NCBI RefSeq assembly: GCF_026210795.1
Contig: NC_089458.1
Coordinates: forward strand, 2,124,001 to 2,188,000
Direction of reading: 5' to 3'
From: Rhizophagus irregularis
Lineage: Eukaryota; Glomeromycota; Glomeromycetes; Glomerales; Glomeraceae
Length of the DNA stretch: 64,000 nucleotides
A program made the position numbers and the translations under genes. Positions 15,611 to 32,174 of this stretch are shown piece after piece. How positions within the stretch are numbered: position 1 is the stretch's first letter; each line of letters starts with the position of its first letter. The notes beneath the pieces were generated by a model, which had not been told where the DNA came from, ran no database searches, and saw nothing but the letters and a program-made list of their open reading frames with translations.

Positions 15611-18600
15611 ACACCAATTTATATCGGGTGCATTACAGGGATTTCACTTTCCTAATAGTGCGATACCTAATAATAACATTCTTAATAATTCTCCCTCTCC
15701 TTTTTCTTCCCCTCTTATTCACTTTGGACAAATCAATGTTAATGGTTTGTGTTCCCCTGTTCGACAATTGCATTTGTTAAATTATTTTCTCCATTCTTCT
15801 TTTGGCGTTTTATCTTTAAATGATACTCGTCTTACTTCTTCAGGTACCAAATTTATTTACCAAAATGAACATTCCCAACATAATTTTAAGTCCTATTGGG
15901 CCCCTTCCCCTTCTAATTCACGACCTCATGATGGTGTTGGTCTTTTACTCCGTCATCCTTTACACAAACATGTTCAGAAGATTGATCCCTGGAAAGGTCG
16001 TCTTTTAAAATTAGATCTTTTTTTTCATCAGACAAAAATTTCTATTATTTCTGTTTATATTCCTCCTTATCATTCTATTCATTATAAAGAACGTGATGCT
16101 ATTTTTGCTCAACTTAATTTATGGCTTGATAAAGCCCGCTCTAATAACTATCACGTAGTCATCCTTGGTGATTTTAATGCAGATGAAATTTCACATTCAC
16201 ATCTTCCTCAACATCATTTAAAAATTTTACGATCACTTTCTTCTCGATATTTTACGGATCATCAATCCCATATCTCTTCAATTTCAGGTCCTAGTCCCAC
16301 CTTTTATCATCAGAATGGTTCTTCAAGACTTGATTATATTTGGTCATCCCCTGGATTTCCTGCTCCTGGTCTTTTCTCTCAAGTTGAAACTTGTCCTATG
16401 CTGAATAATAATCAATTTACTGATCACCGTGTACTTATAACGGCCTTTGATTTTAGCTCCTGTTTCGCTACTTTATCCAAAGCTAGATTAAAGCAGAAAA
16501 GCGAACAACGCACCATCTTTCTTTACAGAAATTTGAAAGATGATACTTGGGACAAATTTTCCAATGAAGTAAACTCACGTCTCAAGTTATACTTGACCAC
16601 ACATCACCCTTCAGTATCTTCACTTTCAGCTTTTTCATTGGACAAACTTTGGCACGCTCTTAAACGTTCTATTCTTGGAGGTGCCATTGATTCCCTACCA
16701 TTTCAACATGTATCTAATACTCACCATCATAAATATCCTCCCGAGCTTACCATGCTTATTGCTATCAACAAATTTTTGGATAGATTATTGTTTAAATTGA
16801 CCACATAAGTATAGGTCGTCCTGCTCAAATTTCACAAATGATTAATTCCTTACCAACCCAATTAATCCTCCTTAAGTCTCTTTTAACAGATTATACTATA
16901 CCTTCTTATAGTACAGCACCACTTCCTACTTTTGTCAAATTTTTACGTTCACAAAAAGCTTTGGTCTCAGCTTATCTTTCCACGCAATTTCATCAACATC
17001 GTGCAGATTCCATTGAATATTATACTGCTCTTAGAGATGAACATTTCTCTATGTCTCCGGGCTCCTTTATTTCTTCAGCCCTATCAGTAGAACATCGTTC
17101 TATCGTTCTTGACAGAGTTTTGGTTGTTATTGACTCCAAACCCACATTACTTACTGATCCTTCAGATATCAAACAAGCTGCTATTAAACACTTCCAATCG
17201 GTTGTTACTCCTCCTTTGGTCCAGTATTCTTCTACGGATTCATTTCCTCCACGTTGGCAAAGAGCATATACTCCTCTTTCTGACATTGATTCGTCCTTAT
17301 ATACTTCGGTTATGTCTTCTATTCTGGAAGATGAATGGAAGAACATTCTCAATTCTATGCCTAATAACAAAGCCTCTGGTCCTTCCAAAATTTCTTATGA
17401 GATGCTCAAACATTTAACTGGCGAAGCTTTCAATTTATCCCTTATTTTAGCTAATGCCTGCCTCATTCATGGAGATATTCCTGCTGATTGGCGTGAAGCG
17501 CTTATTTATCCCATTCCAAAGCCTCATGAATTTGACGCACAATTAAAGAATACGCGACCTATCACTTTGTTGGAAACTGTACGAAAATGTGTGGTTAAGG
17601 TCGTTACAACTCGTCTTTCAAAAATCCTAGCTGACAACCAAATGCTCCAAGGTGGTAATTTTGCTGGATTGCCAGGCGGTTCCACTGATATTCCTATTAA
17701 GATGCTTGATGCTATTATTCATCAACGACGCTTTGACAAAACTGATGACCAAGATTTATGGATTGTTTCTCAGGACATTTCTAAGGCCTTTGACTCAATT
17801 GATTTAAACATGCTTAGACTGGCTTTAATTCGTCTGCATATCCCGTCTTTATTGATCAAATTTATCATTAACCTTTTTACAAGACGTAATAATAAAATTA
17901 TTACCCATTATGGTGATACTTCTGGATATAGAGTTAGAATTGGTATTGACCAGGGTGAAATTATTTCTCCATTATTATGGGTTATTTACTTGGATCCTTT
18001 GCTTACCACACTTAATCGAGAAGCTTGTGATCCTTTTATTTTGAAATCTTCTGCATTATTGGATTATTCTCCAATTGAATATGAACAACACAATCTTCCT
18101 GTTTCGCATATTACATTTATGGATGATTCTACTTTAATTGCTTCATCTAAACGAGGAATTGAAGATCGTCTTTCCATTACTGCTGAATTTTATACTTTAA
18201 ATAATACTCAAGCCAATTCAGCAAAATATATTCTTCTTTCTTCTGAACAATTTTCTCAAACTATTGTGTTTGATCTTTCTCCATCCCCTCTAATTACATC
18301 TCATACCCTTACTTTAAAGGCATTAGCCTTATCTACATCTTTTCGATTTTTAGGTGTTTGGTTTAATCTTTCGGCTTCTTCTCGTTTTGTTCACAACCAA
18401 ACTGTTTCCATGGTCAAAGATATGGCTGCTTTACTTAGTCCCAAAAAACTTTTGGCACAACACGTGGCCTATCTTTATAATATTGTTTTACTTCTGAGGC
18501 TAGAATTTCGCCTACAATCCACATTATTTGCTGAATCCACCATTAATCGCATGGTTTCTCCAATGCTTTCTCTTATTCGTCAGAAGGCTGGTTTGGCCTC

Positions 18601-21013
18601 AGTTACTCCTCTCTCTGCGCTTTTCACACTGTTGCCATTCTCTATCCAACAAGCGTTTGGTCGATTTCTATCATCTCATGTGGCTTCATGGCAAAGAATT
18701 TTTTCTCACCCTTCATATAAGCTTTTTGCCAACTATATGATTACCTATCTCCAAGGATTTTTGGATTGTGATGCCTGTCCCTCTACTATTGATTTGGAAC
18801 CATGGTCCTATACCTTTTTCCTACGAACACATTCTTTGTTCAATTCTTTATTGTTCTCTTCTCGATTGAATATCACGTGGTCTTTATTGTTCCGACCTCC
18901 GAGGAAAGATTTACGACTGGCGATTCCACTCCAGTCTATTTTACCAAAAGATTTATTTACTTCCATGAAAAATGTTCGGAAAAATTTCTGCACTCGTTTT
19001 CTTGCTCAACTGATTACACCATGTGGCTCTCGACTTCTCTCATGGAAAGATTTACGATTTCTTAAACGAGTCTCGAACAAAGGATCTGTGCCTGTTTGGT
19101 TTACTTATTTATTTAATTTTATTGTTATTTCTAATTCTTCTTCTTTTTTTGTTTTACCACAATTTAAAATTCCTATTTCTCATACTGTAGCTTCCATTTC
19201 TCTTATAGACATTAGTCGTAATTATTGGTTTAACCCTCAATGGGCTATTTCTTTTAATCGCAATACTAACTCTTTCCTCGTTGGCCATGTGATTACTACC
19301 TATCCTGCTCCACGTAATGAAGCTCTTATTTCACATTGGATTGCGTCATTGGTTGATGATTTGGTTTCTGAATTTACTGCATGCCAAGGATGTGCCTCTG
19401 CTATTCTGCGATCCTCTACCTCTAAGACTTTGATTAAACGATGTCCCTCTGAAGGATGTTTTTCTTATGTTCCGTTATCAAGTTTGATCCGTTATCCTAC
19501 GAAACCTCGTACTTATATACATGCGGATACTCGCTCGGTTTCACTTTCTGCCTCGTTAGGCTATGCCAAATCCCTTTTGTTATTTCATCTTTTTGCTTTG
19601 GTTCGGCTACCTCCTGTGCTTAACCAAGCGCCTAGGATTTCTGATATCCAACTTCCTTTTTCGGTGTCTACACTTTATATTGATGGTTCCTTCCTTCCTC
19701 CTTCTAGTCATCCGGTATCATCGATGGCTTATGCATGGACTGCTATGGATATTGATGGATTCATTTTGGACTCTCACTATAATATTATTTCTTCTATTTT
19801 TCCTTCTGCTTTACGTTCAGAAGTTTTTGCTTTATTGCATGGTTTGGACTCCCTCCCTCAGAATTCAAAGATTACTGTCGCTACTGATTGCGCCCAATTA
19901 CTTTCTTTATGGTCTTTGTATGTGGATGCTCCTTTTATTCCCAGAATGCTTAAAGAATCCAACCACCTTTTGTGGTCCTCTATACGCACTATTATGTCGC
20001 AAAAGAATCTGAATGTTCTCTTGATCAAGGTTCCTGCTCACGCTGACGACCCTCTGAATAATCATGTGGATGCATTAGCCAAAGCTGCTCATACCGATTC
20101 AAACCTTTCTTCTCGTCCTTTATCGGATTTGCTGGCTCCTTGCATTTTACAATTTAATTCCTTACCTGTGGATATGAATATCCGGAAATTTATTAGAGAT
20201 ATTTTTGATGCAAAAAGTCTTTTAACTCTTGCTGTATTACCAAGATTTATTTCCCATTCTTCAACTTCTGATATCGATTGGGCATGCACCAAATTTTGTC
20301 TTAACAATAATAAGCAATTTATCTCTCATCAGAATGGCCATTCCGAGTTTTGCAGTTTCCGTATTAAATTATTATTAGATATGCTTTCAACGCTTACAAC
20401 TCTCCAGCGACGAAAACCTCATATTTATAATCCGAGTTGGCTTTGTCCTCAATGTAACTCTTCTCCTGAGACTTTAGACCACTTGTGGACTTGTCCTTAT
20501 ATTTTACCGGAATTTAGCCCTTTAAATACCTTTAAAACATTACTGTTGGCTCTTCGGACTAATTATCTTGATAAATTCCTTTCCGCATCATCTTTGATAT
20601 CTTTACCGGACTCTTTTGCTGCTGAGTTTACGGCTCTTAATTGCTGGGATTGTGACCCTCCTTCAATTTCCTGCCTACGTCTCGCAAGAGGACTTATACC
20701 GATATCTCTTACTAAATTTCTTGGAATTTACTTTTCTTCACCTACCATATGGTCTATCTTAGATACACCTTTGCATGACTTTCATTTTAACCTTTATGTT
20801 CAAATCTGGTTGTGCCGTTCTATTTTCTTTCATCATTGGGAATCAGCTCAAGGCATCACTAAAAAAATGAAATCGTCAGCTCTTGGGCCTTCTTCTATTT
20901 CTCATACTTCCTCTAATATCCTTCCTGATTCTTCAACACCTTCTCTGGCGACAGTTTCCTTGGATTCCTGGGTTTCTTGGGTTTCCTCTTCTATAATCCA
21001 TGGGGGATCTTAG
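15603..21013 (+). pseudogene. ORF2 of non-LTR copy 2: endonuclease, RT, RNase H (one frameshift)
   Basis: The ATG at 15603 overlaps the ORF1 stop as ATGATTGA. The endonuclease (INVNGLCSP, VILGDFNAD, SRLDYIWSSP, TDHRVL) occupies 15720-16450. One frame break near 16808 is followed by a 1,391-codon open frame containing the RT (YPIPKPHE, GGSTDIPIKML, SQDISKAFDS, FMDDST near 18115-18130), RNase H (LYIDGSF near 19675, LRSEVFAL, ATDCAQL, VDALAKAAH) and the zinc motif CPQC...HLWTC near 20445-20495. The TAG at 21011-21013 stands where copy 1 has a Trp codon and the downstream frame still resembles copy 1, so the natural end was probably farther on. It is the best preserved ORF2 in the window. Confidence 0.9.
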
Positions 21014-22642: not shown

Positions 22643-23173
22643 TGTTAACCGATTCGGTACGTTGAATAGATTAACTATGATTTGCAGTCAGGGAGATTAA
22701 GTACGTTTAACTATGACTGAAATCCAATCAAACAAGACACGCTTAAAAATAGGGAGTTCGTTTATAGTGTAAAAGGTTATACTTTATTATAGAACTTTAT
22801 AATTACAAGAATGAGAATTAAGGAACTAAAGATAAACTAATTCGAACTGAAGGAACTTCCCTTATAACGAAGGAAAATACCAACGTTATTTATATAAAAG
22901 TTACTACATATAAAGATATAATAAATATAATAGATATAATAAATATAAGAAATATAACTAATATAATAAATATAACTAATAAATTAAATATAATAAATAA
23001 AATAATTATATCGATTATATTAAATATAATTAATATAATAAATATAATAGAAATAATAGGCTAAGTAGGCTGCGGCTAGGTCAGCTTGGCACAGTTGGGC
23101 ACAGTAGATCCTAATTTTCCACATGATCTTCTGGCGCAGTAAGTTGTAACTCTACACGTGACTAGGGGTAACA
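22643..23173 (-). repeat. 3' LTR (left copy)
   Basis: 531 bp, starts TGTTAACCG and ends TAACA. It holds a long AATATAATA-type microsatellite (about 22916-23047) and matches the other LTR throughout except an A/G difference near 23080. As the element reads leftwards this is the downstream LTR. Confidence 0.95.
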
Positions 23174-23186
23174 GGTTCCTCCTCTT
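23174..23186 (-). promoter_or_regulatory. Polypurine tract
   Basis: On the minus strand AAGAGGAGGAACC directly abuts the 3' LTR, the expected place for the plus-strand DNA primer. It overlaps the stop codon of the 137-aa accessory ORF by two bases. Confidence 0.8.
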
Positions 23187-23598
23187 AATTTGCAGCTCCT
23201 GCAAAAATCAATAAATTATTTCTAAGTTTCCTTATCTGAGGTCTGGTAATTTTCCTAATAACCTGGACGTCTAGTTTCTTCGTCCTTAAGATTTGTTCCG
23301 GAAAAAACTCAAAAATATCAAAAGTCTTTTCTACAATTGTTGCATAATGTAATGACATTTTATGCTTGTATTTCAATCGTTCGCTAGGAGTTGGTAGTTG
23401 GTCTAGGAGTTGTCCTAAATAGAAAGAGTTAATCATCGCCAATTGTGTGTCCTTTAGTCGTATTGACTTCGTTACACTTCTTAGAGTTGCAGAAAATTTA
23501 ACTTGGAAATCTTCTTCTTCCATGTAGGGCGGCGGTGGAAAATTAATTTCTTCTGAAGTAGTTTGTTGAATATCTTCTAATATTTCTGAAAAATCCAT
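23185..23598 (-). CDS. Accessory 137-aa protein with PPPY motif, between integrase and 3' LTR
   Basis: Intact ORF, ATG at 23598 and TAA at 23185-23187, lying just before the polypurine tract on the sense strand of the Gypsy element. The N-terminus is acidic (MDFSEILEDIQQ) and contains FPPPPYMEEEDF at about residues 20-31. PPPY fits the PPxY consensus bound by WW-domain proteins such as Nedd4-type ubiquitin ligases. The middle and C-terminus are a mixed helical, basic region (KLDVQVIRKITRPQIRKLR). No family was recognised. A TATATATAG box sits about 44 bp upstream (23642-23650), so it may have its own promoter. It is intronless, as expected for sense cargo that passes through the element's genomic RNA. 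It could be an envelope-position accessory protein or captured host sequence. Confidence 0.75.
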   Translation of the reverse strand: MDFSEILEDIQQTTSEEINFPPPPYMEEEDFQVKFSATLRSVTKSIRLKDTQLAMINSFYLGQLLDQLPTPSERLKYKHKMSLHYATIVEKTFDIFEFFPEQILRTKKLDVQVIRKITRPQIRKLRNNLLIFAGAAN

Positions 23599-24099
23599 TT
23601 TTCTTCAAGCGGTTTAAACTCTTTTGTCAACTTATCCACATCTATATATATGTTTTAAATTTCTGTAGATCGTTTTGCTGATTAGATTTTTGTTTATTTC
23701 TGATGAGATTTTTGTATTACTCATCATGTTTCACCACATCTATCAGTTATTTTTAGCGCTTAAATTATTTAACCGCGTTTTTCTATTTTAAGATTATTTT
23801 TCCTTGTTCTAAAAATATCTTCACATTTTTCTCTAGAACTTTTCAGAAATATTTTCAAAAGTGATTTTTGCGCGTCTTACGCGTCCACATTTTCATAATT
23901 TTTCGCGTCGTGATTTTTCGTGATATTTTTGTTGTGCCTGATCTTAACGTGTTTTCGCGTCATGCCTATTTCTTATATAAGGTCTAAATTTTTTCCCCTT
24001 TCTCTTTTTCTTATCTTCTTGTAAAATCTTTATATTATCCCAAAATTTTTCCAAAATTTTCTTTGTCTACCTATCTATCTATCTACCAATCTATCTATC
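23599..24099. promoter_or_regulatory. Divergent promoter between the two accessory genes
   Basis: About 500 bp separate the two start codons. A minus-strand TATA box (23642-23650) lies close to the 137-aa ORF and a plus-strand TATATAAGG (23974-23982) lies 118 bp before the bZIP-like start. Four GCGTC motifs cluster at 23872, 23881, 23905 and 23957; on the other strand they read GACGC, and the last is inside TGACGCG, which resembles a CRE/ATF half-site bound by bZIP factors. ACGCGT at 23879-23884 also matches an MluI cell-cycle box. A CTAT microsatellite (24068-24099) forms the plus-strand leader. Function is inferred. Confidence 0.6.
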
Positions 24100-24796
24100 A
24101 TGACCTGTCGTCGATCTAATACCTCACGTCAGAAATCTCGAGCAAGATTTCAAAGACTTAAAGAAGCACGTAAAATGAAAGTTCGTCAACTTGAAGGTGG
24201 GTATTGTACGCAAGGTTCTTAAGATGTCTCTTGAACGGTATGATTGCCTGTAGACAGGGTTTCGACCTTATATCCGGTTCTTAAAAGGTTGATTTTGCGC
24301 AGCTTGTAGACGGGGTACTTGTACTTCTAGGATATTTAAGTCTTGAAAGGCCTCTACCTGTAGAACTTTTTTGTACTATCGACCTTATTCACTTAGTTTT
24401 TAACTAACTTGGAGTGACCATAAATCTCCATTTTTATTTCTAATAGAGGACCTTACGAAAGCTAAGGAAGAAAAAGAAGATCTTCAAGAGAAATTTGAAA
24501 ACTTGCTGGAAATGGGGACCCATAAGAATCTCGAGACAGAATTCCAAAATAAAATCTGGGCTGGGGAGCAGCGAAAATTATGGGAGGCCCAAAAATTAAT
24601 TATCGACCAGCAGCGAACAATAGAAGGTCTGGAAGAAGGCGTTTGTCAATTAATTTCACATAATATAGGCTTGCAGAGTAGTAGAGGTCGTGCTGAAGCA
24701 GCATTTGAAGAAGCAAAACAAATGCTTTTTGAAGAATGTAATATAATTTTGTCAAACGGTTCTACTTCTAATCCTAGTTATGAAGAAGTTGATTAA
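24100..24796 (+). CDS. bZIP-like protein encoded antisense inside the Gypsy element (one intron)
   Basis: Exon 1 is 24100-24196 and exon 2 24447-24796, joined in phase across a 250-bp intron (GTGGGT...TTTCTAATAG), giving 148 residues. The N-terminus is a basic region: RRSNTSRQKSRARFQRLKE (residues 4-22). Counting from Arg14, heptad positions 24, 31, 38, 45 and 52 carry Arg, Leu, Ala, Leu, Leu, the register of a leucine zipper. The canonical basic-region Asn is Ser here, with an Asn next to it. A long charged coiled coil follows (LEEDLTKAKEEKEDL onwards), then a polar tail. The gene runs opposite to gag-pol and ends tail to tail with integrase, about 220 bp apart. In that orientation the intron is invisible to splicing of the genomic RNA, which explains why it survives. 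DNA binding is inferred. Confidence 0.8.
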
Positions 24797-25014: not shown

Positions 25015-28000
25015 TTATACTACAATTATTGGTTCCCAATTTTGTCGATCGTGATACAATTTTAATAAACTTCCATTTACAGGAGTTCGTAAGACTTTTC
25101 CATCTATAGTTCGTAATTTGTACGCTCCTTTTTCTCCAACTTGATGAATATAGTATGGTCCTTTCCATTTTGGATTTAGTTTTCCAGTCCATTGCTTTTC
25201 TTTTGCTGCGTCATAATATAAGACTTTATCTCCAATAGAAAATTTTATTTGATGACATAATTTTCTATCATGTCGTTCCTTTTGTTTTTGTTGAGATATT
25301 TCAATATTTGTCTTAGCTATTTCGATTTCTTGAGGTAGTTGGTCAACTAAATTTTCTATGTGATTTATTAAAGTTGGATTTCCATTATTTTCTAATGAAT
25401 CAGTTGGTAGTTTAGCATCTCGTCCATATAATAAAAAGAAAGGTGCGATTTTTGTAGTCGAATGTTTTGTAGTACGATAAGCAAATAAAATTGGTGCAAT
25501 ATAATTATCCCAATTATCAATATGATCTGTTGATAATTTTGCTAAAGATTCTGATAAAGTACGATTAAATCTTTCTACAAGTCCATTTGTTTGAGGGTGG
25601 TATGGTGTTGAAAATAAATGTTTTATCTGAAATTTTTCCATTAATTTTTCAATTATTTGATTTCTAAAATAAGTTCCTTGGTCTGATAATATTTTTGCTG
25701 GACATCCATGTCGACAAATTATTTCTTCATAAATAAAAAGTGCAGCTTGTTCTGCAGTAGCTTCTTTTACAGGTCGTGCTTCTGGCCATTTTGTTAAATA
25801 ATCCATTGCTGTAATTATATATTTGTTTCCATTTGTAGTTATAGGTAAAGGTCCTACAAAATCTATTCCTATTTGATGAAAAGGACTTTCTACTGGAATA
25901 GGATGTAAAGGTAACTTTGTCTTTTGTTTTCCTCTTCGTTGACAAGAGTCACATGACATGACATAAGCTCTGATGTCATTGTACATTTGTGGCCAATAAT
26001 ATCTTGATTGAATTTTGTCGAAACATTGTGTCAACTGAAAAATGCGCAGCAGTAGGATCGTTGTGGAACATAAAAAGAACTGGTTCCAATTCATGTCTTC
26101 TAATTACTCGTAGTAAATTATTTTGTCTCTTTTTATCCTTTTTATAAATGAAATTATTTTTGATAATAAAATATACTGATTGTTTTTGAATTTGTTGTTG
26201 TTGTTGGTTATTTAATGTAAAAGGTAATTGATTATATTTTAAATAATTATATATGTTATTGTAATGTTCAATATCCATTTTTGAAAATTTAGGCTGTCTC
26301 GTCACGATGCGGACACTTTCGCTTTCACCTTTTGATACTTTGTTAATTATAATATGTAAAAGAGGTGGACTTTTAGTCCAAATTGGCAATGAAAGGTTCC
26401 AAAGATACTTTGTAAACTGGTAAATCATTCATTAATCGTTCGATATATTTAAGATAATTGATATTATTTTCAAGTTGTACTGCTTGAGGTTCTTTCCACC
26501 ATTGATTATTAATAAGGAATTTGGGATTCATATCTGGCCTAATTTTTCCTAAAGTGAATCCAATGATACAGTCGTGCATAGTAGTTCCATAAAATAGATT
26601 CTTCTTGCACATCGTACAATATGTATGCACGTGATGATTTTCTGTATCGCATTCCATGGTACAACGACTTCCACCATGATTGATTGGTTGACCGGCGATT
26701 ACTTGTTTAATTTTTATATTTTCCAAATACATATTTTCTAGAGCTTGACGGTTCATACCACACATGGTCCAGGCGATATGTTCTTCAATATTAATCTGAT
26801 TTTCTTCTGAATAATCAGAGAATGCATCTCCATAAATTTGTCTTTCCCACAAATTATTATATTCTTCTGTATCAATCGAATAGTTATCTTCATTACACTG
26901 ACAAATAATTTCGTTACAACAACTATATGGTGATGGTGAACGGGCTGGAGGAGGTTGACAAACTTTACAAATACAATCTTCTGGATGAAGTCCATTGGGG
27001 TTGTCAAAATCATATCGAATTCCTGAAACAATATTAATAGGAGAGTTATTTTCAGATCGTTCTTCAATGTAGCTTTGCATATCATATATTAGATTATCAC
27101 AACGATTTAACAAATCAATAGCTCTTTGAGCAGGTCTATCAGTATAATCATCTTCTGAATCTGCATCGTACTCTTCATGTACTGGAGTAGAACTTTCATT
27201 TACATTAGTTTGTCCTTCTTTTTCAATAGAAATCATGAAACAACTAAGAGTTTGGCTATCTTCTTCAAACATTCTAGATAATGCATCTGCATTTGCGTTT
27301 GCTTTTCCCGCTCGATGCTTAATATTAAAGTCATACTGTTGAAGGTCCATGACCCATCTCGCACGGCGACCTTTTGGGATTTTGGATGTCTTTAACCATT
27401 TTAGAGCAGAATGGTCAGTAACAATTGCGAAAGGTTTTAATCCTAAGTAATGTTGGAAATGTTTGATAGCCCACACTATCGCAAGACATTCCCTGGTCAG
27501 TTATAGGGTAATTACACTCAGCCTTATTCAAAGATCTGCTGGCATAAGCGACTACATGTTCTTTTCCATCCTCTCTTATTTGTGATAACACAGCACCAAG
27601 TCCAGTTCCAGATGCGTCTGTATGGATAATGAAAGGTTGTTCAAAGTCAGGATATGTTAAGATTGGAGATTTAATTAATCTTTCCTTCAAATAATCAAAT
27701 GCAGTTTGTTGTTTCTCAGTCCAATGAAAAGGAGTTTCCTTCTTTAAAAGTAATAACATTGGTTTGGCTATTTTTGAGAAATCTTTGATGAACTTTCGAT
27801 AGTAAGAGAATAAGCCTAATGCTGAGCGAAGTTGTGTTAGATTTGTTGGAACCGGAAAGGTTCTAATTTTTTCAATTTTTTCTGGATCAGGTCGGATACC
27901 TTCTCGTCCTACTACATGTCCTAGGAAATGAATATTTCTGAGGCAGAAATAACATTTCTTAAGTTTAATCTTCAAATTTGCTCGTCTAAGAGTCTCAAAT

Positions 28001-28965
28001 ACTTGTCTAAGATGGTCCAAGTGTTGCTCCAAGGTTCCTTTTGAATAGATGATTACATCATCTAAATATACTGCTACAAATTTCCCTAGATACTCCTGGA
28101 GTATTCTATTCATTAATCGTTGAAAAGTTCCAGGCGCATAAGCTAAACCAAAGGGCATTACTAGAAATTCATATAATCCAAAGGGAGTAATGAAGGCAGT
28201 TTTCTCCACATCTGCTGGATCCATAGCTACTTGCCAATAACCACTGGCTAAATCTAATGTGGTAAACCATGTTGCATTACTAAAAGATTCAAGCATATCA
28301 TCAATTCGAGGCAATGGGTAAGCATCTGCTTTGGTGACAGCATTCAATTTTCGATAGTCTATGCATAAACGTTTTTCTCCTCCTTTTTTATCAACAATTA
28401 CCACAGGTGAAGCCCAAGGGCTAGCTGATTTTCTTATAAGTCCTTGACTTTCCATTCTTGTGATTTCTCCTTGTAAGAATTCTCTATATTTAGGATTACA
28501 TCGATAGGGTGGTTGAGAGATAGGAGTAGCATCTTTTGTAATAATTTTGTGCTTAATTACATTTGTTTTTCCAATTTCTGTTTGGCTTTTAGCACAAATA
28601 TCTGCATAGTCACTCAAGAGTTGTTGAAATTGGCTTTGTTGATGGTAGTCTAACGGTCCTAAATGTAAGTCTGGATTGACTTTTTCTTCACTATATACTT
28701 CTGCTTGAGCTAAAGAAATGGCAGGATTTGATTCTTCCAATTCTTCATCTTCATTATTTTGGTGGGCAGGAGATACTTCATTTTCCCATGGGTTAAATTC
28801 AAGGGATTCTTCTGTTGAATAACCAGAAAAATCAGACATATAGATTTGAGCTTCTTCTAACTCTTCAGACTCATATTCTTCTTCGTCATCATACTCAAAT
28901 GATTGCTTCATTTTAATAGGTTTTGGGAGAGTAAAAATCACAGGGGACTGTTGTGGATCGTCCAT
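25015..28965 (-). pseudogene. Gypsy pol: RT, RNase H, Cys/His-rich insert, integrase (frameshifted)
   Basis: RT starts in a frame overlapping the Gag-protease end (28913-28965) and shows KRLCIDYRKLNAVT, FGLAYAPGTFQRLMN and YLDD near 28050-28080. RNase H has HTDASGTGLGAVL and ends with HRAGKANANADALSRM. A Cys/His-rich insert of about 270 residues follows (26400-27250). Integrase has an N-terminal HHCC zinc motif (C-x2-C near 25950), the DDE core (GIDFVGPL, LSDQGTYF, LVERFNRTL) and a GPY-type end (WKGPYYIHQVGEKGAYKLR). Frame breaks: near 27490 (a GGG where GG would restore phase), near 26400 and near 26030 (one extra C fits). All shift the same way. In a very young element these could be fresh mutations or base-calling errors. 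Confidence 0.9.
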
Positions 28966-31369
28966 TGTATCTGATAGTTAGTGTCTTCTTGTCCCAGTCA
29001 AGAGCAGCATTTACCTTTCTCATCCAGTTATTTCCTAGAATAAAAACACTATCGCTTGATTCTATGATTTGAACATTGGTTTTAATAATTAAATTTCTGA
29101 CTTTTAGGGGTAAGTTTTGGATTTCTCCCAATGACCTAACTCTAGTTCCATTGGCAGTTTTAATTACATATTCTGAAGGTCCATCGATAGTTAATTTCAA
29201 AGTTTTCATCATAGCAGTAGTCATAATACTAACTGCAGCTCCACTATCAATTACTGCAATAACTGATTGTTGGTTAATATGAAATTCACATTTAGCAGCG
29301 GTAGTGGGAGTTTCTTCTTCTGAGTTGGAGTCTCCATAGTAACTTTCTCCAATATAATTATTGTTATCAATCTTTTCACGCTTTCTCCTCATACTTTGAA
29401 TTAATCCTTTCCTGTAAACAGGAAGTTGGGCTGTTGCTTGACCGATAGATAGACCACAAGGAAGGTCACTAATATATTTAGCTATATCAAATTCATTGAC
29501 ATTTTCAATAGGTGCAGGGACCATTTTGGTTCTTACTTTTCTTTTTGTTGAAGGTTCTGCTGTAGCATCCATATCCATAGGTGTAGAAGGAGTTACTGGA
29601 GGAATAGGTTGGGTACGTAATTGGTCTTCCTTTCGAGATTCTGAAAATCTTGTTCTTTTTCCTCTAGGAGAAGATATCTCATATGGAACAGATCTAGAAC
29701 GAGTTGTAACATATGCTTCATATTCGTCTTCTTCTTCCCATTCTTCCTCATATTCATCCTCATATTCATCATAGTAAATTTCTGCTTCATCATCTGCATA
29801 ATTAATAGGTGTAACTGGTGCTCTTTGACGAGGGCGATTATTATTATTATTATTACCATTAATATTTCCATTATTGGTATTTCTTCCCATTTGGCAGTTT
29901 CTGGAAATATGTCCTATATTTCCACATCTAAAACAAGTAATATTTGGATTGAAGGAATTCTGAGTAGGGGCTTGACCATTCTGACGATTTTGATTGTTAT
30001 TATTATTAGGTCTTGGTCTAGTATTTCGAGGGGTGCTTTGTTGAACCATTAAAACTGATGAAAGATTTGCATAATTAAGAGCGAGTTGTTGCATTTGTTT
30101 TGTTAATGCTTCCATTTCATCTACTTGTGGAGTTGGTTTAACAGTTGTAGTAGTAGTTGGAATAGGTTCTATAGTACTAGTAGTTACAGGTGTTGTAGTT
30201 AAAAGAGTAGTATTTACACCTAATTCTACTAACTTGGCTCGGGTAATAGTTGCTTCCAAAGTATCAGTATTCCCAATTACTACCTGTCCAACTAAGAAGG
30301 GCTTGAGACCATTAATATAGTAGTTAATTTGGTATCTTGCGGCTAAAGCTTCCCCTTGGGTGGCTTTATTTAACAGCTTCTTAAAACGTCAGGAGTAATT
30401 TTCTACTGATTCATTGTCTCCTTGTTTAATATTTTGCAGTTCTCTGGTCCACTGATTCCTTCGAGCAGCAGTTGCAAAGTAGTTTAAAAATTGGGTATCA
30501 AAGTTATTTGCATTGTTATCTACATGCCATTGGTTGATATTTCCTCTATTCTCTTCATACCAATCTCGGGCAGCTTCCTTAAGAAATCCAGCGGCTAAAG
30601 CAATTTTTCGATTATCTGGCCATCCATTAGCTGCAAAGGCAGCTTCAAAGAGTCGACACCATTCATATGGATCCTCATCATCACGTCCATAGAAAAAGGG
30701 AACATCAACAACTTTAGATGTTGTACGATTTTGGTTGGCAGTTGTAAGAGCATTAATGGCATTAAGATTATTTTGTAATGCAGTAGTAATGGCATTTGTA
30801 TTGTTATTCAAAGTATTTTCCAAAAGGTTTCCAACATTTCTGGGATTAGCATTATCTATTGGGTCAGCTCCCCAAACTAACTTCATAAGATCTTTCATCT
30901 GACCTTCATTCATGTTGGCGTTATTATTTACTGGCGTATTATGAAAAATTCGGTATGCGTTGGTTACTTGAGTATCAGTTGGTAAACTCTTGAATCCGTT
31001 TGTTAATTCGAATAATTTATGTAAATAAAAGGATAATTCTAATAAAGGAGTATTTATTTGTCGAAACTTTATACTTTGTAGGATCTTAGTAGTTATACCG
31101 ACAAGTGTATTGAGTTGTGTAGTTATAAAGAATTCAGTTTTTAATACTTTAAAAGCGGCTACTGTTGCTCCAGTATATTGTTTTGCTGTGTACTGAATAG
31201 AAATCCAGAGCCAAAATTTCTCAAATCCGTCAGGGATATTGTCAGCTGGAATAGAATCTGTTGGATAACACTGAATACAGTAAACTTCTTTTTGGTTGAT
31301 TGTTCTTCCTCTACGATGTTTTCTTTGATGTGACTTTAATTCTGCTTTAGATAAATTGTAAAAGGGCAT
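28913..31369 (-). pseudogene. Gypsy Gag-protease, one in-frame TGA
   Basis: One frame from the ATG at 31369 to the stop at 28913-28915, about 818 codons, interrupted only by a TGA at 30389-30391. A basic N-terminus leads to a capsid-like Gag domain (VPFFYGRDDEDPYEWCRLFEAAF, WYEENRG, LQNIKQGDNESVENYS). After the TGA comes the CCHC knuckle CFRCGNIGHISRNC near 29895-29935, a strongly acidic run (about 29700-29800), basic nuclear-signal-like clusters (SPRGKRTRF, STKRKVRTK) and the aspartic protease (VIDSGAAVSIM near 29240, then ILGNNW). It packages element RNA and processes the polyprotein. The TGA falls inside capsid, not at a gag-pol boundary, so a mutation is likelier than programmed readthrough. 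Confidence 0.88.
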
Positions 31370-31643: not shown

Positions 31644-32174
31644 TGTTAACCGATTCGGTACGTTGAATAGATTAACTATGATTTGCAGTCAGGGAGATTA
31701 AGTACGTTTAACTATGACTGAAATCCAATCAAACAAGACACGCTTAAAAATAGGGAGTTCGTTTATAGTGTAAAAGGTTATACTTTATTATAGAACTTTA
31801 TAATTACAAGAATGAGAATTAAGGAACTAAAGATAAACTAATTCGAACTGAAGGAACTTCCCTTATAACGAAGGAAAATACCAACGTTATTTATATAAAA
31901 GTTACTACATATAAAGATATAATAAATATAATAGATATAATAAATATAAGAAATATAACTAATATAATAAATATAACTAATAAATTAAATATAATAAATA
32001 AAATAATTATATCGATTATATTAAATATAATTAATATAATAAATATAATAGAAATAATAGGCTAAGTAGGCTGCGGCTAGGTCGGCTTGGCACAGTTGGG
32101 CACAGTAGATCCTAATTTTCCACATGATCTTCTGGCGCAGTAAGTTGTAACTCTACACGTGACTAGGGGTAACA
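31644..32174 (-). repeat. 5' LTR (right copy)
   Basis: 531 bp, TGTTAACCG to TAACA, the partner of 22643-23173. It should hold the promoter for the genomic RNA, which is transcribed leftwards. Confidence 0.95.

Follow-up and report, generated by a model that had tools for sequence, protein, structure and literature searches.

In the human T-cell leukemia viruses (HTLV), the proteins HBZ (HTLV-1) and APH-2 (HTLV-2) are made from spliced antisense RNA and both damp Tax-driven activity of the long terminal repeat (LTR); APH-2 is without a typical basic leucine zipper (bZIP) domain (PMC3736048). The splicing of HBZ is in turn subject to regulation, with Tax as the restricting factor (PMC12313066). 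In plant Gypsy retrotransposons (Retand with TRP28, Grande with gene23, RIRE2), antisense open reading frames (ORFs) are situated between pol and the 3' LTR. Gene23 of Grande is reported to have its own promoter and a nuclear product (PMC11963269, PMC7264820), and DNA binding is predicted for the plant antisense genes (PMC11963269). The word intron is absent from the main text of both articles, and PMC7264820 recommends looking for spliced antisense transcripts. Among fungi, the Gypsy element Boty/BcGypsy1 of Botrytis carries an antisense additional gene, brtn (cited in PMC7264820 and PMC8365987). The element Cer1 of C. elegans forms a nuclear accessory protein, CERV, from spliced RNA, which acts in genomic RNA export (PMC10309623). 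Here a Gypsy element of the arbuscular mycorrhizal fungus Rhizophagus irregularis with an antisense gene of this kind is described from a window of 64,000 nucleotides (nt) (assembly GCF_026210795.1, contig NC_089458.1, referred to as C30, positions 2124001-2188000). The words antisense and intron are absent from the main text of two studies of transposable elements in this species (PMC8647823, PMC11075540).

The Rhizophagus Gypsy lineage of the window element carries a true intron-bearing antisense accessory gene, which is present in three families. In the window the element occupies the minus strand and the antisense gene the plus strand. Exon 1 (24100-24196) encodes a basic region and exon 2 (24447-24796) a putative heptad zipper followed by a second long helix, the two exons giving a product of 148 amino acids (aa). 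The phase-1 intron between them (24197-24446) has GT...AG borders, an alternative donor at 24215 and a branch-point-like CTAAC at 24404-24408. A sense accessory gene of 137 aa with a PPPPY motif (ORF3, 23185-23598, minus strand) lies on the other side of the antisense start. An initial annotation of the window had proposed a Gypsy element with a sense FPPPPY ORF and an opposed two-exon gene, and coordinates, frames and public models agree with it. The end of the integrase frame at 25015, the end of the 3' LTR at 23173 and the two start codons facing apart were also placed correctly.

The locus resembles HBZ and APH-2 in its antisense orientation, its position in the 3' end region of an LTR element, 3' of pol, its spliced coding RNA (as given by gene models) and its product of basic and zipper type. 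The antisense RNA of HTLV starts in the 3' LTR, whereas the start codon here is situated about 0.9 kb from the LTR, and unlike in HTLV the intron is short and conserved between element families. The likeness is one of design, and most likely the parallel arose on its own. In lying between pol and the 3' LTR, the coding region agrees with the plant antisense ORFs; the Retand type differs in that TRP28 is not matched here. Boty/BcGypsy1 and Cer1 are likened to the locus by description.

The public models P0001, P0002, P0003 and P0005 (Rhizophagus irregularis) are 148 aa long and 96-99% identical, with the same junction. A search with the antisense product gave 26 protein matches, and all those with an organism name belong to Rhizophagus. 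P0004, which stands for a 22-member cluster, and P0011 use a donor placed 18 nt deeper, so that GGYCTQ is added. In P0010 and P0011 a short segment of exon 2 is skipped. P0010 is similar to the genomic copy L020, whose stop falls inside the skipped segment, so the second intron may be an annotation device in this model; P0011 is similar to L019, which is stop-free. The alternative donor is present in all four loci compared (the window, L028, L029 and L034), and in the same four loci unspliced antisense RNA would meet a stop after 40 residues, so that intron retention would give a basic peptide without the zipper. Antisense placement could account for the survival of the intron through retrotransposition, because the genomic RNA carries the complement of the intron, which would not be spliced.

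The region between the two starts (23599-24099) presumably contains the promoter or promoters of both genes, and a single shared promoter, as read from the sequence, could serve them. Five TATA-like strings are found here, among them those at 23974 (plus strand) and 23649 (minus strand). Four CGCGTC repeats within 23871-23961, upstream of the antisense TATA-like box and partly present in family 2, bear a resemblance to fungal cell-cycle boxes.

A DNA search of the fungus's own genome (146.7 Mb, 32 contigs) gave at least 49 matches to the region, of which 17 are near-complete. These 17, the window's own included, together with one copy split into pieces make up a set of 18 loci (family 1). When matches longer than 100 nt are considered, an LTR match adjoins the region in 17 of the 17 near-complete copies, 12 copies have a second one inside the stretch that was fetched, and all but L024 (16 copies) have an integrase match. 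The donor GT and the acceptor AG are kept in all 17. One copy, L024, carries a stop in the sense frame, which is open in the other 16; the antisense frame is open in 13 copies and broken in the rest (L010 and L021 are out of frame, L020 has one stop and L025 is decayed). The ratio of nonsynonymous to synonymous substitution (dN/dS), which the initial annotation had suggested determining for both ORFs, was obtained across copies by the Nei-Gojobori count with broken copies excluded. Across 13 copies of the antisense gene it equals 0.123; the sense ORF has 0.140 across 16 copies and 0.098 across the 15 that remain without the outlying L025. Variable sites at the three codon positions amount to 14/7/30 in the sense ORF (minus L025) and 13/11/41 in the antisense gene. 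The antisense protein is under purifying selection in this family, and its splice sites are kept.

An antisense gene with the same intron phase was found in two further diverged families when proteins and other copies were searched, as had also been proposed. Family 2 includes L028-L032, L038-L041 and, in part, L035 and L036, and family 3 includes L034, plus L033 with a different upstream part. In both families an ATG exon of 97 nt (96 nt in two decayed family 2 loci) that encodes a basic stretch precedes a phase-1 intron, behind which comes an exon for a coiled coil. Their products, predicted from DNA, are carried letter for letter by the models P0087 and P0102, P0087 having a longer tail. 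A sense ORF and an integrase match are present in family 2 loci (the sense ORF of L028 is 28% identical to that of the window). In family 3 an integrase-like tail is discernible by eye, and the fetched stretch ended short of the position of the sense ORF. Decay is common among the loci; exon 2 of family 2 is stop-free at four of its 11 places in the genome (C1:3030694, C12:2384160, C30:2610843 and C30:162859). L033 keeps the intron and exon 2 of family 3, its upstream exon and promoter being other sequence. In R. diaphanus, P0104, P0105 and P0116 have the first exon in common with the antisense gene. In P0105 and P0116 exon 1 is joined, at residue 32, with a portion of exon 2 that lies further on, P0104 continues differently, and the exact acceptor is for these reasons unconfirmed in this species; P0112 has another start.

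In design the antisense protein is basic-zipper-like; by signature it is no bZIP. Residues 1-30 contain 10-12 Lys/Arg and 0-1 acidic residues across families (12 and one in the window). The d positions 31/38/45/52 are occupied by L/A/L/L in the window, L/F/L/L in family 2 (with a further leucine at d position 59, L/F/L/L/L) and L/L/M/L in family 3, and Asn is found at a positions in families 2 and 3. Such d positions combined with a-position Asn are typical of a dimeric zipper. The leucine heptads read earlier at 31, 38, 45 and 52 hold for Leu31, Leu45 and Leu52, position 38 being Ala. Common to the representatives of the three families are M1, R4, R5, S6, S9, K12, S13, R16, L20, K21, R24, K25 and L31. 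AlphaFold2, supplied with 17 family 1-type sequences, predicts helices 2-54 and 57-138 with a predicted local distance difference test (pLDDT) of 86.5 and a predicted template modeling score (pTM) of 0.36. The leucine-type heptads are continuous with the basic helix within the first of them (family 1).

The basic region of bZIP proteins is characterized by the signature Asn-x7-Arg (PROSITE pattern PS00036, together with its register). The label bZIP, which the product had been given, is not supported, because this signature is absent and the Pfam scores stay below the cut-off. In an alignment anchored at Leu31, the positions of the invariant Asn and Arg are taken by Ser13 and Lys21. Arg14, proposed earlier as the bZIP arginine, corresponds to Gln in both other family representatives and so is not conserved as such, and the lone plain N-x7-[RK] string (family 3, residue 10) falls outside that register. 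The window protein gives no match to Pfam bZIP at E 1. Two of the five alignment members match bZIP_1 (E up to 1, best 20.3 bits), and the best relative, P0087 of family 2, reaches 20.4 bits vs the 27.6 required; P0091, P0104, P0115 and P0113 give no bZIP_1 match at E 0.1. For the antisense ORF, Pfam gives only two weak matches at E up to 1, and the TRP28 domain (PF04195) is not one of them.

Between families, the intron is the most conserved of the segments compared (intron, exons, sense ORF, upstream region, integrase end and a reverse transcriptase (RT) segment), and the conserved block spans the 5' splice site to the branch point. Compared with the window, five family 2 loci have a DNA identity of 80-82% in the intron (83-84% in its first 220 nt), 60-70% in exon 1, 48-52% in exon 2, 50-51% in the sense ORF and 62-65% upstream of exon 1 (23751-24099). 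In a comparison with a single family 2 element, identity is 63% over 326 nt of the integrase end and 64% over 836 nt of the RT frame. Family 3 is 72-76% identical to the window in the intron, 59% in exon 1 and 45% in exon 2. The intron has 42 matches in the genome, some being pieces of a single copy. In an unrooted intron tree (supports 0.92, 1.00 and 0.94, with several inner nodes weak) families 1 and 3 each group apart from family 2, which favors constraint over a recent swap. These comparisons hint that between families the intron sequence may be under stronger constraint than the compared RT segment and that the intron itself could do a job.

A structure of the intron RNA has moderate support from models. 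Sixteen intron sequences were aligned blind to structure; their consensus fold (RNAalifold) has an energy of -25.7 kcal on the antisense-gene strand vs -3.5 kcal on the opposite strand, and 96.3% of cells pair on the former. Changes on both sides occur in 11 pairs (a count reached by four of 500 shuffles) and the covariation score is 0.199 vs 0.162 (reached by none of 500), these pair statistics being inflated by the relatedness of the sequences. Column shuffles gave z values of -2.26 (1/200) and -2.50 (1/150) for the plus strand and +1.54 and +1.38 for the minus strand. The predicted stem (within 24214-24377, plus strand) joins 24214-24224 with 24367-24377 in eight pairs with interior mismatches, and the outermost predicted helix joins 24197-24203 with 24386-24392, covering the 5' splice site itself. 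The predicted stem could be likened to the zipper stems of yeast introns through distances (17 + 29 nt) alone; yeast stems are mostly poorly conserved according to the paper describing them, whereas the stem sequence here is conserved.

The antisense product could be an element-encoded regulator, formed by splicing, with its output set at that step and acting in trans on the element; a probability of roughly 0.55 is assigned to this reading, and a regulator role would be the best-supported function for the protein. The gene would be read toward pol and its RNA spliced, giving a basic, dimer-type coiled-coil protein. Splicing at either of the two conserved phase-1 donors would join the basic region to the zipper, and output could be set here, since unspliced RNA would yield the 40-aa basic peptide only. 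The protein would enter the nucleus and act in trans on LTR-driven or divergent promoter activity, as HBZ and APH-2 do on theirs. More tentatively, the intron may be a conserved regulatory RNA, namely a structured splicing switch, to which the basic-zipper protein encoded on either side of it may bind.

Several observations speak against this interpretation. Splicing is deduced from gene models, not reads. The antisense frame is broken in four of 17 copies of family 1, seven of the 11 family 2 exon-2 places hold a stop, and the Asn-x7-Arg signature is absent in all three family representatives. Within family 1, 19% of stretches of equal size are less variable than the intron. As to the fold, one of five pair measures, the count of further pair types, does not stand out from its shuffles (165 of 500 reach it), subsets of three, six and nine (family 2) sequences give z of only -1.58, -1.19 and -1.10, and a single intron sequence is no more stable than its shuffles (z 0.23).

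Alternatively, the intron could host a function of its own, as a non-coding RNA or as a site in RNA or DNA for a protein, which might be the basic one that the element encodes, with splicing geometry secondary. Its identity of 80-84% against near 50% in exon 2 and 64% in the RT segment, with 72-76% to family 3, would suit such a function, as would the words CTGTAGAC and CTTGAA, which recur inside the intron as judged by eye. However, the intron gives no Rfam match at E up to 5 and contains no tRNA, no canonical C/D box is recognizable by eye in the intron alignment, and the extent of the conserved block, donor to branch point, is the one expected under splicing-related constraint. This explanation is somewhat doubtful, and regulation by a spliced antisense protein is preferred to it.

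Antisense transcription could itself be the function, with double-stranded RNA formed with the element RNA setting silencing and the protein being incidental. R. irregularis does produce small RNAs from Gypsy elements (PMC8647823), but the dN/dS of 0.123 and the zipper register common to three families point to the protein, which makes this explanation improbable. Capture of a host gene by one element, with retention for a host function, would be consistent with the gene's own intron and own upstream region. Nevertheless, within the surroundings of the fetched genome matches, all 17 near-complete copies stand beside an LTR match and 16 of them have an integrase match, and neither protein search gave a named relative outside Rhizophagus, so that capture is quite improbable. 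Least of all can the likeness of the introns be ascribed to a recent swap between families by recombination, since, despite patchy, recombination-like divergence along close copies, families 1 and 3 group apart from family 2, introns differ by 17-28% between families vs 8% in the single family 2 pair compared, and each swap would need ends near the splice site and the branch point.

ORF3 is probably an older accessory protein of a wider Gypsy group, to which the antisense module was added later, loss of the module being the alternative. AlphaFold2 predicts, at high confidence, an all-helical, compact fold (pLDDT 92, pTM 0.87). Its relatives (60 proteins, the window's own counted, and 65 genomic matches) reach beyond the antisense-gene families, and a PPPPY/PPPY-type motif is found in ORF3 of several families; no relative with known function was recognized. 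In four loci (L049, L050, L051 and L052) the integrase frame is followed by ORF3, which a stop interrupts in L050 and which is open in the other three. The antisense proteins give no match in these loci at E 5, and the intron gives none except a 20-nt chance match in L050. The two genes are consequently not an inseparable pair, and the occurrence of ORF3 without the antisense gene suggests later insertion of the module. These four loci form a natural comparison group for the effect of the antisense module. The annotated protein P0086 (111 aa) fuses the start of the sense ORF to a stretch of antisense exon 2, although the two lie on opposite strands, and may be a rearrangement or an assembly error.

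The element is a Ty3/Gypsy retrotransposon of the minus strand according to its LTRs, target-site duplication and domain order. The 3' LTR (22643-23173) and the 5' LTR (31644-32174) are direct repeats that begin with TG, end with CA and differ at one of 531 positions, and a 4-bp ACGT target-site duplication flanks the element. AT-rich 9-nt repeats (22860-23094 in the window) are present in each LTR. The polypurine tract (23174-23186), assigned by position, adjoins the 3' LTR and overlaps the stop codon of the sense ORF. The protein-coding frames, all on the minus strand, comprise gag and protease (28913-31369; frames 30389-31369 and 28913-30388), RT with RNase H (27415-28977) and the integrase end of pol (25015-26103). 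Pfam matches are gag-asp_proteas (43.3 bits), zinc knuckle (26.2 bits), Retrotrans_gag (23.6 bits, slightly below the cut-off of 24.1), RVT_1 (131 bits), rve (46 bits) and H2C2 (43.2 bits). In the sense direction the order protease, RT, RNase H, integrase is that of Gypsy elements.

In the window copy, pol is split into several frames. When stop-to-stop frames of at least 250 codons are considered, a frame of 1665 codons is found in three of the 18 loci (L012, L013 and L015), and in two of them (L012 and L015) it is accompanied by an open frame of 470 codons. Together with the single LTR difference, these two loci suggest recent activity. The contrast with the pol frames is weaker evidence than dN/dS, because a gene is broken the sooner the longer it is and the element is truncated in some of the stretches fetched. 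Elsewhere in the window (16796-21013, plus strand), an open frame of 1405 codons resembles, by eye, a reverse transcriptase of LINE type whose C-terminal part is RNase H-like.

Gypsy antisense genes are already known in plants and Botrytis; what such genes do for LTR elements becomes testable here, in a fungus of agricultural weight. The setting offers a kept intron, a basic-zipper design in three diverged families and, with the ORF3 loci that have no antisense gene, a contrast of before and after. An intron that outlasts the RT segment in sequence is unusual and points to control at the RNA level. If the intron is indeed a regulatory RNA, the element would read its own antisense activity through splicing.
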